From assembly GCA_903848655.1 (NCBI GenBank), contig CAINGT010000007.1, forward strand, positions 1 to 64,000: a stretch of 64,000 nucleotides of DNA, read 5' to 3'. The stretch comes from an uncultured Sphingomonadales bacterium (GTDB taxonomy: Bacteria; Pseudomonadota; Alphaproteobacteria; Sphingomonadales; Sphingomonadaceae). This document shows, piece after piece, positions 138 to 61,345 of the stretch (position 1 is its first letter; each line of letters begins with the position of its first letter). The position numbers and the translations under genes were made by a program. The notes below the pieces were generated by a model, which did no database searches, was not told the origin of the DNA, and was given only the letters and a program-made list of their open reading frames with translations.

Positions 138-203
138 TAGGAGTCTTTGTTTTCGCATGATTTTTTGCGAAAAACCGGTGCCCACTTTTTCGCATCATGC
201 TCT
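138..203 (-). repeat. Partial RIME-like palindromic repeat (domain B only)
   Basis: About 64 bases correspond to one half (domain B) of the 102-bp element seen whole at 6232-6333 and 59812-59913, in the same orientation as the former. It keeps the GCGAAAAA...TTTTTCGC inner palindrome and the terminal ATCATGCTCT edge. The palindromic domain A expected upstream is absent; IS5-type sequence takes its place. The repeat overlaps the 3' end of the DUF3237 gene and supplies its last two codons and stop. Confidence 0.8.
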
Positions 204-650
204 AACGATGGCGTAAAGCCGATAGCGCACGCCTTGCGCGGTTTCGCACGCTTCGCCCACTGCCAGCGTGGCGTTGAGCCAGTGGTACTTATCCGCGCCA
301 GTGGCAAACCGCGCCTGCACTTGGAACAGCGTATCGCCAAAGTCGCACGACAGCCCCGCCGCCAGCCGCGCGCTGACGGTTTCGCTATAGCGGTAGAGCC
401 CGGTATAGCGCACATCGATCAGCGCGCCATCATCGGTGGCAAATGTCTTGCGCACGTCAAGCTGGCACAGCCCGTCGGCACCTTCGGTCATCCAGTCACC
501 CCCGCCCGGCAGGATCGTGCCGCGCAAACGTGGTCCTTCGAACGTGCCTGCGCCAACGATATAGGTCGTGCGCGTGCCGAACGGGGTCGCGCCGATGGCC
601 TGAACCGTAATCGGGTTGGTAAAAGTCAGCAAAGGTTCGAGCGTCAGCAT
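195..650 (-). CDS. DUF3237 domain-containing protein
   Basis: This 151-residue protein has the DUF3237 pattern: GTFEGPRLRG at residues 35-44, PGGGDW at 48-53 and YHWLN near 122-126. The family is a small beta-barrel-like cytoplasmic protein of unproven function, often beside oxidoreductases of aromatic or terpenoid catabolism. Here it is last in a minus-strand run behind an MDR oxidoreductase (23-nt gap). The final Arg-Ala and TGA are encoded by the palindromic repeat at 138-203, so the native C-terminus was probably replaced, though the length is close to normal for the family. The family call is firm; the role is unknown. Confidence 0.8.
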   Translation of the reverse strand: MLTLEPLLTFTNPITVQAIGATPFGTRTTYIVGAGTFEGPRLRGTILPGGGDWMTEGADGLCQLDVRKTFATDDGALIDVRYTGLYRYSETVSARLAAGLSCDFGDTLFQVQARFATGADKYHWLNATLAVGEACETAQGVRYRLYAIVRA

Positions 651-2513: not shown

Positions 2514-3467
2514 TCAGCGCCTGGGCACGACCTCATACCCTTGGGCTTCGGGTTCATCATCGACCATGGCGGGGGGAAAGCCGGTGCCGAGCACTTTCAG
2601 GCCAAGCGGTTCTTCATAGCGGCGGATGATATTGGGGGACCGTTCGCGGTCGCCATAGGCAGCCCGCGCCTCATTGAACAGGCGCACGATCAGCGGGGAC
2701 AGTTCCAGCGAAACCCCGTTGGCTTGTGCCAGATCGTCGAACAGGCCGATGTCTTTTGATACCAGATCCATCGTGAAATTGATATCGCGGCTGCCGTTCA
2801 GGATCACCTGGCTTTCGGTTTCATGGACAAAGCTGTTGCCCGATGAAATGCGGATCGCCTCATACGTCGTGTTGGGGTCAAGCCCCGCAGCGTGGCACGT
2901 GGTCAGCGCTTCGGCCAGCGCGACAAGGTGCACCGTGCACAAATAGTTGGTCATCACTTTCAGCCGCGATGCGGTGCCGAGCGGGCCGGTGTGCAAGACG
3001 CGGCGGCCCAATGTGGTCAGCACCGGCAGCACTTGGTCAAACCCTTCGCGCGGGCCACCGGCAAAGATCGAGATATTGCCGGTTTCGGCGCGGTGGCAGC
3101 CGCCCGATACTGGGCATTCCATGAACAGCGCGCCGCGCGCTTCGACCAGCGCACCCAGCCGCAGCACTTCGGCATAGTCGGTGGTGCTCATTTCCAGCCA
3201 CACCTGACCGGGGCGCAGCACTGCCAGAAAGCCGTCAGCGCCTTCGGCCACGGCCGCGCTGGCGGCGGGCGAGGGCAGGCAGGTAATCACGATCTCGCTG
3301 GCATCGGCCAAGGCGCGCGGGCTGTCAGCAGCGCTTGCCCCGCGCGCGACAAAGCTTTCGACCAACACCGGATCAAGATCGCGCACCACCACATCATGCC
3401 CGTTGCGCAACAGGCTGCCCGCCAGCTTGCCCCCGACATTGCCCAGCCCGATAAATCCGATGCGCAT
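2514..3467 (-). CDS. 3-hydroxyisobutyrate dehydrogenase-like NAD(P)-dependent oxidoreductase
   Basis: This 317-residue beta-hydroxyacid dehydrogenase begins MRIGFIGLGNVG (GxGxxG at 7-12). It has the substrate-binding segment ECPVSGG (117-123, usually DAPVSGG) and a catalytic Lys near 170 in SRLKVMTNYL. The C-terminal all-alpha domain fills the rest. It would oxidise a 3-hydroxy acid with NAD(P)+; the exact substrate cannot be read. The gene lies between fumarase (69-nt gap) and the SDR/MDR pair on the same strand, so a catabolic transcription unit feeding central metabolism is plausible but inferred. Confidence 0.87.
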   Translation of the reverse strand: MRIGFIGLGNVGGKLAGSLLRNGHDVVVRDLDPVLVESFVARGASAADSPRALADASEIVITCLPSPAASAAVAEGADGFLAVLRPGQVWLEMSTTDYAEVLRLGALVEARGALFMECPVSGGCHRAETGNISIFAGGPREGFDQVLPVLTTLGRRVLHTGPLGTASRLKVMTNYLCTVHLVALAEALTTCHAAGLDPNTTYEAIRISSGNSFVHETESQVILNGSRDINFTMDLVSKDIGLFDDLAQANGVSLELSPLIVRLFNEARAAYGDRERSPNIIRRYEEPLGLKVLGTGFPPAMVDDEPEAQGYEVVPRR

Positions 3468-5767: not shown

Positions 5768-6625
5768 TTGGGCATAGTCACGCGCTCGCGCACTGCCAGA
5801 CAGTTTGAGCGGGATATCTTTCTGGCCTTTTTCGCGCTCGGCCTGATGGGCGTCGTGCTGGGCTTTGTTCCGCCAAGCTGGACTCGCTTCAACGGTCAGG
5901 CCGAATACCCGGCACCGCTGGCCTTGCAGATTCACGCTGGACTGTTTTTGGGCTGGACCGCGCTGATGGCGGCACAGATTGCATTCATCCGCCAGGGTCA
6001 TACGGTGTTCCACCGGCGGCTGGGGCTGATCGGGGCCTGCATGATCCCGGCCATGGCGATCAGCAGCGTGTTTGCCGAAACTTGGAGCGAGCGGTTCGCG
6101 GCGCTCCACCACCCCGGCGGTCAGCGCTTTTTGATCGTGCCAATCTTTTCGCTGTCGCTGTTTTTGGTGTTCACGACGGTGGGGTTGTTGCTGCGCAAAA
6201 ATTCGGCGACGCACAAACGCCTGATCTTTCTAGAGCGTGATGCGATGAGATTGAATCGCATCACGCTCTAGAGTCTTTGTTTTCGCGTGATTTATTGCGA
6301 AAAACCGGTTCCCACTTTTTCGCATCACGCTCTGGGTACGGCGTTGCTGTTCGGCGCGGCGTGGTCAAGGGTCAGCGAGCCGCTGCTCAGACCCGCACTC
6401 GGTAACCACGGGCTGGGCTTTTTCACGCACCGTTTCATCATGACCAATGTATTTCTGGTGATGCTTGCCACGCTTGACTGGCGGACGAGGGGCCGCTTGT
6501 ATCGGGCCACGGCCATCGGTGCAGGTGTGATCGTGGTGTGCGAAGCTGGCGTTACGTGGATCTATCACAAGGATTGGTGGCTGATGACGGCTGATGCGAT
6601 CTTGCGCCATTTTCCCGGGCCATAG
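5768..6625 (+). pseudogene. Multi-pass membrane protein gene split by a 102-bp palindromic repeat
   Basis: From TTG 5768 (AGGAG six nt upstream) the frame encodes several hydrophobic segments (LAFFALGLMGVVLGFV, FLGWTALMAAQIAF, VPIFSLSLFLVFTTVGLLL), then enters a repeat at 6232. It ends at TAG 6269-6271 inside the repeat. Downstream of the repeat (6334) the same frame resumes with LGTALLFGAAW and further membrane segments (MTNVFLVMLATL, TAIGAGVIVVCEAGVTWIY) to a stop at 6623-6625. Removing exactly 102 bp restores one frame of about 251 codons. Function is not recognised; related uncharacterised membrane proteins are thought to occur in sphingomonads. Only one amber codon breaks it. Confidence 0.8.
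6232..6333 (-). repeat. RIME-like mosaic palindromic element, full copy (domains A+B)
   Basis: A 102-bp unit bounded by AGAGCGTGATGCGA and TCGCATCACGCTCT. It has two parts: a 38-bp palindrome (6232-6269) able to form a 14-bp stem, and a second part with the inner palindrome TGCGAAAAA / TTTTTCGCA. It is the reverse complement of the copy in tamA (59812-59913), with few differences. Flanks suggest a CT dinucleotide at both edges. Its size and mosaic build resemble rhizobial RIME elements; no transposase is encoded. Confidence 0.9.
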
Positions 6626-39486: not shown

Positions 39487-39531
39487 TAAAAAAGCCCCCG
39501 CCCCTTCAGGGGAGGGGGCTGGGGGTGGGGC
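39487..39531 (-). terminator. Repeat-type terminator (minus strand), ends trcR
   Basis: Hairpin AGCCCCC-g-CCCC-TTCA-GGGG-a-GGGGGCT (39493-39520). On the minus strand it is followed by Ts (39493-39488), terminating the trcR transcript; it also lies just past bacA on the plus strand. With its C-rich flank it is nearly identical to 58006-58049, so it is a dispersed repeat. Confidence 0.8.
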
Positions 39532-39560
39532 CTCTCGGCTTGCGACGAGCGCGCCCCCGA

Positions 39561-43382: not shown

Positions 43383-43418
43383 TCACACGCCGGTTTTTAC
43401 CTCCGGTGGCCTGAGGCT

Positions 43419-43487
43419 CGCAATAAATCACGCGAAAACAAAGACTCAGGAGCGGAATGCGATGCAATCTAATCGCATTCCGCTCTA
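43419..43487 (+). repeat. Partial RIME-like palindromic repeat (end of B plus A)
   Basis: This matches the last half of domain B (CGCAATAAATCACGCGAAAA...) and all of palindromic domain A (GCGGAATGCGA ... TCGCATTCCGC), in the same orientation as the tamA copy. The first ~34 bp of B are missing. It lies between clpA and the bchC promoter in the 409-bp gap 43342-43750; the stretch 43488-43657 shows no recognisable gene. Confidence 0.85.
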
Positions 43488-57953: not shown

Positions 57954-58007
57954 CCCCACCAATCCTATAGGCCCCACCCATCCTATAGGCCCCACCCATC
58001 CTACAGG
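57954..58007. repeat. Three tandem 18-bp repeats
   Basis: Three units: CCCCACCAATCCTATAGG, then CCCCACCCATCCTATAGG, then the same with TACAGG. They lead into the C-rich arm of the terminator at 58020. The 269-bp gap 57917-58185 holds these repeats, the terminator and no gene. Confidence 0.9.
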
Positions 58008-58019
58008 CCCCACCCCCAA

Positions 58020-58049
58020 CCCCCTCCCCTGAAGGGGCGGGGGCTTTTT
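58020..58049 (+). terminator. Rho-independent terminator after ilvA (dispersed repeat)
   Basis: CCCCC-t-CCCC-TGAA-GGGG-c-GGGGG then CTTTTT. It terminates the ilvA transcript and is almost identical over about 44 bp to the inverted copy at 39487-39531. Confidence 0.88.
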
Positions 58050-58185: not shown

Positions 58186-59046
58186 GTGACCGCCCCGGTA
58201 CGTTTTCCGCGCTTTTTCGTCACCAGCCCGATGCCGTGCCCTTATCTGCCGGGCCGCACCGAGCGCAAAGTGTTTACCGAGCTCAAAGGGCCGGGCGCCG
58301 ATGAACTCAACGATGCGTTGAGCCGGATCGGGTTTCGCCGCAGCCAGACGGTGGCCTATCGGCCAAGCTGTGCGGGCTGCACCGCATGTGTTTCGGTGCG
58401 CGTGGTGGCTTCGCAGTTTTGCGCTTCGGCCAGCCAGCGCCGCACTTTGCGCGCCAATGCCGATCTGATCGTGTCGGTCTGCCAGCCATGGTCGACGCCC
58501 GAACAATATGGCTTGTTGCAGGACTATCTGGCGGTGCGTCATCCCGGCGGCGGCATGGCGACGATGGATGATATCGATTTTGCCGATATGGTGGAACATA
58601 CTCCGGTAACCAGCTACGTCGTTGAATATCGCGAACCCAATGCCGATGGCACGCCCGGGCGGCTGGTCGGCGCATGCCTGACTGACCATCAGGGCGATGG
58701 CTTGTCGATGGTCTACAGTTTTTACGACCCCCATCATCCGACACGGACCGGGCTTGGCACATTCATCATTCTTGACCATATCCGACAGGCGAACCGTATT
58801 GGCCTTGCCTATGTCTATCTTGGCTATTGGGTCGAAGGTTCGCCCTGCATGGAGTACAAAGTGCGGTTTCGCCCGCTGGAGCGGCTGGGCCGCGATGGCT
58901 GGGACCGTTTCGACCCCGCCGATCAGGTCAATGCCATCAATCGCGTTGGCGCGGGAGTGTGTGCTGCGGCACGACGTGAACCGGTCCATGGCGCAGCCGA
59001 TCCGGGCAAGGACGGTCTGGCCGGGATGGTGCGCCAGTATAACTGA
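58186..59046 (+). CDS. bpt: Aspartate/glutamate leucyltransferase (Bpt)
   Basis: The 286-residue protein is Bpt/Ate: [42 protein letters not shown] (cysteines used by the family), and [22 protein letters not shown] and [24 protein letters not shown]. It adds Leu to N-terminal Asp/Glu, feeding the ClpAPS N-degron path; ClpA is at 41 kb. GTG 58186 gives the standard [10 protein letters not shown]-like start. It overlaps tamA by 59 nt. Confidence 0.94.
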
Positions 59047-61345
59047 ACGCCGCCTGGCCGCGCTGGTCGCGCTGGTGTTGTCGCCGGCGCAGGCGCTGGC
59101 GCAGACTTTGCCGCCGATTGCGCCGGATGCCGATGCCGCGCTGGGCGCGCTGATCCCCGACAGCGCGGTCGCAGACCCCGCCACGTGGGCGCTCGATACC
59201 GAAGCAGCGCGGCATCCGCCCGATCCGCGCAGTCTGCCGCCGGTCGCCTGGCCCGTCACGGGTCCGCCACCCGACGCGCTGCCCGTGCCGATCCCGGGGT
59301 TGACGATTGGCTGGCCTGACAGCTTTGCGGTTCCGCCGATCACGCTCTTGACCGCCGATGCCGACGCGACACCCGCGCAGGCAAGCCCGCCGACAGCCGG
59401 TGCGGCGCGCGATGTGGCGCTGCCGCGCGGGGGCTGGCGCGGCGCGGCGGGGGATGGTGCGCGGGTCTGGCAGGCTGCACCGGGGATCACGGTGGCGATC
59501 GCGGCAACGGCGGCCGTGCCTGAAATCCAGGATATCGTCCACCGGTTCGGTGCGCTGTCCAGCTTGCGTGCGCTGGCGCGTGGCGATGACAATCTGGCGC
59601 AAGTGTCGCGCCGCGCCCACGATGACGCGGTGCTGCTGCAACAGATCATGCAACTCTATGGCTATTATGATGCGCAAGTCAGCCCTGATTTGCTGGCGCT
59701 GTTGCCCGGTGCCGACCCATTGCACAATGCGGGTGCGGTGCGCTTTGATGTCCAGCCGGGTACCCGGTACCGCCTGACCGCGATCGATCTGGGCGATCTG
59801 GCCACAAGCCTAGAGCGTGATGCGAAAAAGTGGGAACCGGTTTTTCGCAATAAATCACGCGAAAACAATGACTCTAGAGCGGAATGCGATTCAATCTCAT
59901 CGCATTCCGCTCTAGACCACGCCGCCTTGCTCGGCGCATTTGCGCTCAAGCCCGGCGATGCGGCCAATAGCGAGGCGATTGTGGCAGCGCGCGACCGGCT
60001 TGAGGCGATGCTTGGAACCAGTGGCTATACGTTTGCCCGGCTGGGACAACCCGCACTGGTGGTCGATCATGCCACTGCCGGGGCTGATCTGACGGTGCCG
60101 CTGACGACCGGGGGCACATACGTATTTGGCCAGATAACCAGCTCGCTGCCCCGGTTTCTCAATGCGCGCCATTTGCAGCGGATCGCGCGGATGCGCCCGG
60201 GCCAGCGTTATGACCAGCGGCTGGTCGATGATTTTCGCCAGGCGGTGCTGACCACCGGGATCGTTGGTGGGGTAACCATCACCCCGCGCGAAGCCGTGGC
60301 TCCCACCGCCACCACGCCGGGCGTCGCCGACCTTGATGTCGTGCTGACCAAAGGCCCCGAACATACTGTGGCGGGGCAAGTCGGGCTGTCGAGCGGGCAG
60401 GGTTTTGAAGTCGATGCCAGTTGGGAAGACCGCAATCTGTTCCCGCCCGAAGGCATGGTGCGTTTGCGCGGGGTGCTGGGGACGCGCCAACAACTGGCCG
60501 GGGCGACATTCCGCCGGTCGAATTTCATGGCGCGCGATCAGGCCTTCAGCCTCAATCTCTATGCCCAGGCGCTGATTACCGACGCCTATGATGCGCATAC
60601 GCTGTCGGCCATCGCCAGTCTGGACAAGACCAGCACACTGCTGTTTCAGAAAAAGTGGGCGTATTCGGCGGGGCTGCAAGTGATCGCCACCCGGCAACTC
60701 GCGGCCGGTTCGCCCACCGGTACGCCGTTTACGACGTATTTCATCGGGGCATTGCCGTTGAAGCTGGCATTTGATGGCAGCAACAATCTGCTCGATCCGA
60801 CCAGAGGGGCGCGGATCGCGCTGGCGGCATCACCCGCGATCTCGATTCAGGGCGGGCCGCGATCATCGTATATCACCACCCAGTTCGAGATCAGCGGCTA
60901 TCAGCCGGTGTCATCGCAAGTGGTGCTGGCGGCGCGCGTGCGGGTGGCGGCGATCAATGGCACCAGCATTGCCAATATTGCGCCGTCGCAGCGGCTTTAT
61001 GCAGGCGGCAGCGCGTCGATCCGGGGCTATGGCTATCAGGCGGTCGGGCCGCGCGATGCCGCCAACAATCCGACTGGCGGGCGCTCGCTCAGCGAGTTTT
61101 CGCTGGAGGCGCGATTCAAGACCGGGCTGTTCGATGGCGCGCTGAGCGTGGTGCCGTTTCTTGATGGCGGCATGGTCGGCACCACGCCCACCCCGACGAT
61201 GCGCGGGGCCAAATTCGGGGCTGGCTTTGGCATTCGTTACCAGACCAATTTCGGACCGATCCGTTTTGATATCGGTACCCCACTCAACCGGGCGGCGGGC
61301 GACAGCCGCATCGCGGTCGCGATTGCGCTGGGGCAGGCGTTCTGA
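58988..61345 (+). CDS. tamA: TamA-like outer membrane assembly protein with 34-residue repeat insertion
   Basis: The 785-residue Omp85 protein has a signal-like segment ([16 protein letters not shown]), a Pro-rich stretch, POTRA domains (about 160-430) and a C-terminal 16-strand barrel ([34 protein letters not shown]). With TamB it assembles outer-membrane proteins. Residues 276-309 ([20 protein letters not shown] onward) come from a palindromic repeat (59812-59913) in a POTRA domain; removing it joins DLATSL to DHAALLGAF. Start is uncertain: ATG 58988 is the nearest in-frame one and overlaps bpt. Its stop overlaps tamB (TGATG). Confidence 0.9.
59812..59913 (+). repeat. RIME-like palindromic element in frame inside tamA
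   Basis: Full 102-bp copy: domain B (AGAGCGTGATGCGAAAAAGT ... ATGACTCT) then domain A (AGAGCGGAATGCGA ... TCGCATTCCGCTCT). Length is 34 codons with no stop in this frame, so tamA stays open. It is the reverse complement of 6232-6333. Flanks again suit a CT dinucleotide duplication. Confidence 0.92.

Follow-up and report, generated by a model that had tools for sequence, protein, structure and literature searches.

Insertion of a palindromic repeat in tamA

A full-length copy of a dispersed palindromic repeat lies within tamA of an uncultured Sphingomonadales bacterium, where it leaves the reading frame open and adds exactly 34 codons. It is highly likely that this repeat, which resembles the CIR elements, was inserted in tamA with the frame kept open and is translated as a 34-residue extension in a tolerant loop of a POTRA domain. 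The window, i.e., the whole stretch of DNA analysed here, comprises 64,000 nucleotides, and coordinates given without a contig name refer to it. The copy is 104 nt long (59811-59914, + strand), begins with TAGAGC and ends with GCTCTA, and thus has TA at both ends; when one terminal TA is taken as a target duplication, the net insert is 102 bp (59812-59913) or 34 codons. A first-pass annotation made from the sequence had described a 102-bp repeat at 59812-59913. That repeat is present, and the wider limits used here take in both terminal TA dinucleotides. The host gene (58987-61345, + strand; start codon uncertain) encodes an Omp85 protein with three POTRA domains and a barrel in the model described below. 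Its open reading frame is uninterrupted from 58697 to 61345, such that the frame is kept across the insert with no stop, as the annotation had claimed. The same annotation had numbered the insert as residues 276-309; the gain of 34 residues stands, while the numbering holds only with a start at the ATG at 58987.

Alignment of TamA with its orthologues, which had been suggested as a check, revealed an exact 34-residue gap in every row. The residues were missing from 20 of 20 aligned relatives in the genus (20 of the 29 relative loci fetched were taken into the alignment) and from 15 of 15 aligned loci of named Novosphingobium and other Sphingomonadales or alphaproteobacterial records, with identities of 44-68%. 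The latter set represents 15 of 16 TamA loci, the remaining locus (L074) having been left out because the length of its match was not a multiple of three. At least three genomes are common to both sets, which leaves about 32 distinct rows without the insert. The claim that removal of the 102 bp restores a continuous TamA agrees with alignment at the level of bases: without them, tamA matches two close relatives, L061 (Novosphingobium sp. FSW06-99) and L062, base for base around the site. The codons at the site are AGC-CTA-GAC in tamA, AGC-CCC-GAC in L061, and AAC-CCC-GAT in L062, and nothing was lost from the flanks (ACA AGC CTA GAC CAC in tamA versus ACC AGC CCC GAC CGC in L061). It should be noted that the closest aligned relatives have only 65-68% of residues in common with the tamA product, and both the age of the insertion and the TA duplication are therefore loosely constrained.

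Predicted hairpins and the open frame

The predicted fold of the tamA copy consists of two adjacent hairpins, a 5' hairpin at 59815-59860 (+ strand; structure columns 5-50) and a 3' hairpin at 59875-59914 (+ strand) with a long stem and an 8-nt loop. At -54.9 kcal/mol (z -9.3), with none of 200 shuffled sequences folding as well, the earlier claim of strong hairpins within the coding region is borne out as a prediction. The linker carries a GACTC at 59870-59874 (+ strand), a GANTC (CcrM-type) site that adjoins the 3' hairpin and is retained in 124 of 145 scored copies. A set of 44 copies of 104 nt was aligned, 37 of them distinct (a 45th, L161, belongs to the 105-type subfamily and was excluded). 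In this set, 97.2% of the cells are paired and both sides have changed in 21, compared to 5.0 in shuffled and 0-4 in slid controls. Since related copies inflate counts of two-sided change, this covariation supports the predicted hairpins and falls short of proving a function as RNA.

None of the six frames of the family consensus is free of stops. In the frame of tamA, the single consensus stop is a TAA within the 3' hairpin loop, where the tamA copy reads TCTCATC versus TCTAATC in the consensus. The C at 59898 (+ strand; consensus A) removes this TAA as well as a TAG in one antisense frame, thereby opening two frames. Among 85 scored copies, the loop base is A in 74, C in 7, G in 2, and T in 2. 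The C allele is also carried by the truncating copy at 6231, described below, and by five copies with no detected gene insertion. Because the copy at 6231-6334 has the C yet keeps a stop, the variant is by itself insufficient for an open gene, and the allele is not confined to coding copies. The net length of 54 full copies, that in tamA among them, is divisible by three; 12 of these 54 have some open frame while lying outside genes, to the extent that this could be judged. Within the same 54 copies, the chance that a random copy, phase, and orientation would give an open frame is 0.068, which speaks mildly against luck.

Dispersal and target preference

The repeat is abundant in the source genome, a draft of 2,950,797 bases in 145 contigs that is 97% complete. 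A 30-nt core of the 5' hairpin, searched with up to 3 mismatches, yielded 65 forward and 57 reverse matches (122 in total), and a reversed-pattern control yielded none on either strand. A pattern for the 3' hairpin gave 275 matches, counted on both strands, the pattern being nearly its own reverse complement. Copies were then catalogued in a sample of 129 merged stretches (368,582 bases, including the window) drawn from 100 of the 122 core places and from the 3'-pattern matches listed, with the contig-start regions of C60 and C126 omitted. These stretches hold at least 164 copies or parts of copies, at least 84 of them full length; the 84 sampled full copies measure 104 nt (54 copies), 105 nt (18), or 124 nt (12). 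The tamA copy is 98% identical to seven others. Two partial copies of the same family also occur in the window, a 5' half at 141-204 (- strand) and a 3' part at 43418-43487 (+ strand). The core is present in 53 of the 195 genus genomes examined; the source genome leads with 150 matches to a looser pattern, followed by the 7.0-Mb genome G030 (47 matches to that pattern). A common plasmid or phage element was considered and rejected, as only 3 of 72,556 plasmid records have matches, all partial, and none of 50,697 phages has any.

TA is present at both termini in 69 of 80 copies. A pyrimidine precedes the left end in 74 of these 80 (p = 1.6e-21) and a purine follows the right end in 76 (p = 1.9e-26), compared to frequencies of 0.42 and 0.39, respectively, across every TA site of the retrieved sequence; these statistics include tandem copies and treat copies as independent, although they are not. 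The copies thus prefer YTAR sites. As regards a possible IS630-derived MITE, the ends are inverted (TAGAGC/GCTCTA) and the flanks YTAR, with TA putatively duplicated at the tamA site; no empty site with TA was found among the aligned relatives, and this duplication is inferred only, because the target codon is CTA in tamA and CCC in both L061 and L062. The repeat had been called mobile, a term for which the high copy number and the pattern of presence and absence argue, such that transposition is probable. A search of the 97%-complete draft for an IS630-type transposase, with PF13358 the only family searched, gave no matches.

Position of the insert in TamA

The insert was predicted to lie in the POTRA region, and an AlphaFold2 model of the protein (P0001, residues 131-767; 16 sequences) places it in a loop of the middle POTRA domain. 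The model retains the TamA fold (mean pLDDT 79.6, pTM 0.56), and among solved structures it comes closest to TamA of P. aeruginosa (8us2 chain A; Z 27.2, rmsd 4.9, 538 aligned), followed by that of E. coli (4c00; Z 26.4, rmsd 5.1, 535 aligned). The insert occupies about residues 127-161 of the model, after a strand at 114-119, and is modelled as a helix with low confidence (pLDDT of 52-58 in blocks spanning model residues 131-160 versus 83-90 in blocks 101-120 and 171-240). It falls between the first strand and the first helix of the middle POTRA domain, the approximate limits of which were read from the model as 59762-60097 (+ strand). By our reading of the order of elements, this would be the beta1-alpha1 loop of POTRA 2. 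The relative G009 also has a few additional residues in this loop. Two Omp85 matches were recovered from the source genome, this TamA and a protein on contig C92 that is taken to be BamA; there is therefore no second TamA to cover a loss, as far as the 97%-complete draft shows.

Interpretation of the insertion

These observations are consistent with the following sequence of events. A non-autonomous, two-hairpin, CIR-like repeat would have entered a leucine codon of tamA at a CTAG (YTAR) site, and TA would have been duplicated at insertion, so that exactly 102 bp or 34 codons were added. The C loop variant would have taken out the consensus stop in the frame of tamA and so kept the gene open. 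The ribosome then most likely reads through the hairpins, producing a TamA with a charged 34-residue extension seated in the tolerant beta1-alpha1 loop of the middle POTRA domain, where it would be nearly neutral for TamA function.

A first alternative is that the insertion inactivates or cripples tamA, with the hairpins or the extra loop blocking translation or folding, and that the frame is open because the insertion is recent and the gene has yet to decay. The 98% identity of the copy to seven others points to a recent event, the predicted hairpins are very stable, and the gene hosting the copy at 6231-6334, which does have a stop, likewise shows no further frame damage yet. However, the copy is stop-free in a frame in which the consensus has a stop (a chance of about 0.07), the remainder of the ORF is intact, the loop is one that also accommodates added residues in G009, and this is the only TamA in the genome. 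Considered together, this alternative appears unlikely. A further alternative, that the ribosome bypasses the hairpin segment or that the segment is removed from the RNA to yield TamA without the insert, is considerably less probable still: bypassed hairpin insertions are known elsewhere and two strong adjacent hairpins are predicted here, but bypass would need neither freedom from stops nor a length divisible by three, and this insert has both. It is scarcely credible that a repeat copy was misplaced into tamA during assembly, since, although many copies lie near contig ends and repeats probably broke the assembly, a misjoin at a repeat would normally link unrelated flanks, whereas here both flanks belong to the same gene, in order, in exact frame, and with no residue lost.

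If the insert is indeed translated in the sole TamA, a type of repeat that is described as intergenic and rich in stops can turn into protein in a free-living alphaproteobacterium. The proposed route is simple and testable, requiring the right length, target, and frame and one base in a loop, and the tamA insert would offer a natural measure of the tolerance of a POTRA domain. A more ambitious and rather doubtful extension is that Novosphingobium harbors a 'coding-competent' CIR-like lineage. With a net length of 102 bp, insertion at YTAR sites where TA is duplicated, and one base change in the loop that frees two frames of stops, such a lineage might occasionally introduce charged, GANTC-bearing segments into envelope proteins; it would parallel the Rickettsia system in a free-living host and would have put a cell-cycle methylation site inside tamA.

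Copies within and between genes

The first-pass annotation had also proposed that copies inside ORFs be scored genome-wide, and the outcome indicates that in-frame coding is the exception. Of the 75 full copies that could be assessed, only 2 sit inside a gene, the tamA copy and that at 6231-6334, and one of the two has a stop. The test was a home-made codon score that needs at least 45 open codons on each side, and insertions near gene ends can therefore escape it. Away from contig edges there are 67 full copies; 10 of them are flanked on either side by coding-like frames of a single strand, and inspection placed 8 of these between genes and 2 inside genes. Eight further full copies included none that were intragenic, the one flagged being read as between genes. 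Additionally, 42 of 80 partial copies were assessable, 9 were flagged, and none was judged intragenic. The verdict 'between genes' reflects a reading of translations for 8 of the 10 flagged full copies, the 9 partial copies, and the 1 later copy, and copies at contig edges (17 of 84 full, 38 of 80 partial) fall outside the test. A rough gene call puts the window at about 89% coding, with 34 of its 62 YTAR sites inside genes, sites made by the repeat included. Relative to this expected proportion of 0.55, intragenic copies (2 of 67) are strongly depleted (p = 2.5e-20).

The second intragenic full copy (6231-6334, - strand) lies in a gene for a putative integral-membrane protein (about 5798-6622, + strand). 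It interrupts a leucine codon, adds exactly 34 codons, and keeps the frame; an in-frame TAG within the copy truncates the ORF, and further frame damage is absent. The relative G020 (L195) has an uninterrupted version of this gene (72% identity), and a Pfam search gave no name to either half of the gene at 5798-6622.

Other candidates for gene insertions were examined and set aside. Open antisense-type frames at five loci of the source genome were all read as lying outside genes. Of 20 loci chosen from a search of 21 relatives with the sense-frame peptide, 19 were by our reading upstream of genes or in non-coding frames, the exception being C87 of G010 (see below), and copies on contigs C68, C130, and C59 of G010 were judged to be outside genes. 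One of the five antisense-type loci of the source genome consists of two tandem copies upstream of a beta-lactamase-like gene (C117:13274-13477; L170).

The terminal TAG of the element may also serve its neighbors. Among 150 boundaries scored, a coding-like frame reaches the element at 33, and at 25 of these the terminal TAG is in frame as an apparent stop, a count that has no control and may include some truncations at tyrosine codons. Examples in the source genome are C49:33747, C42:9604, C48:7796, and C122:13307. Such use as a neighbor's stop fits YTAR targeting of stop codons.

Comparison with known repeat systems

The first-pass annotation had called the repeat RIME-like; the best-documented resemblance is to the CIR elements (Caulobacter CcrM-associated intergenic repeats), which one account describes as repeats of about 110 bp with two arms and a linker, GANTC, and TA termini that are not intragenic and carry multiple stops in all six frames (PMC2229807). 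A second source calls them 'strictly intergenic' and describes the Rickettsia palindromic elements (RPE) as well (PMC10969869). As far as these descriptions go, the repeat reported here is similar in size (104 nt), has two hairpin arms and a linker, TA ends, and GANTC, is alphaproteobacterial, and is mostly intergenic. It differs from them in having one copy in frame within a gene, whereas CIR is described as intergenic only, and in the position of GANTC, which is in the linker (59870-59874) rather than at or in the terminal loop. Because of this position, the repeat is termed CIR-like and not assigned to CIR, the likeness being to the description of CIR and not to a CIR sequence. The open-access literature searched yielded no account of a protein gene carrying a CIR-like or RIME-like element.

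Other alphaproteobacterial repeats, namely Bru-RS1 and Bru-RS2 of Brucella and RIME1 of rhizobia, are likewise palindromic. Two sRNA models from Brucella, RF02600 and RF02599, recognize both hairpins or one hairpin of the tamA copy below the gathering score. RF02600 matches 59 places in the source genome and, among 14 control genomes, only Caulobacter, below the cut-off in both cases, which is an indirect sign of a likeness to CIR. Our guess is that the Brucella sRNAs behind these models are Bru-RS copies.

The analogy drawn by the first-pass annotation to RPE is supported by the in-frame 34-codon insert in a conserved gene. RPE are described as palindromic repeats of 105-146 bp that occur in frame in genes for conserved proteins, in 19 reading frames, and one tested RPE-bearing product stayed active with an altered substrate affinity (PMC2229807). 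The tamA copy is likewise a palindromic repeat in frame in a conserved gene. However, RPE are specific to Rickettsia by definition, while the host here groups with Novosphingobium, and in-frame coding copies are common in RPE and rare here. The repeat would thus work like an RPE but is not assigned to that group. Intragenic ERIC and RU repeats of enterobacteria are described as TA-flanked and MITE-like with frames fused to genes, some of these fusions being at gene ends or in small ORFs (PMC2759123). They resemble the present case as TA-flanked repeats with a frame joined to a gene, in other bacteria.

A related element in another genome of the genus

In the genus genome G010, a variant of the element (C87, about 3310-3415; L239) lies in frame in a gene whose product, going by domain names, we take to be an acyltransferase with a C-terminal SGNH-like domain. 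It adds about 33 residues between CDPP and GC. None of the 7 homologues aligned, out of 14 loci fetched, has this insert; these homologues are distant (32-40% identity in the matched part) and were aligned in the C-terminal part only by MAFFT. The ends of this element are GGAACG and CGTTCC, without TA, and for this reason it would be either older or of another subtype. By our reading, it would represent an independent insertion in another genome of the genus.

Two minor observations concern gene starts and a different repeat. At G010:C18:18960 (L205) and at L077, a half element within an apparent stop codon runs in frame into the start of the following FAD-oxidoreductase-like gene, and the N-terminus of the encoded protein may be partly derived from the element. 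Lastly, the window contains an inverted, GC-rich, terminator-like pair of 50-nt sequences at 39489-39538 and 58000-58049 that are 94% complementary and belong to a different repeat family.
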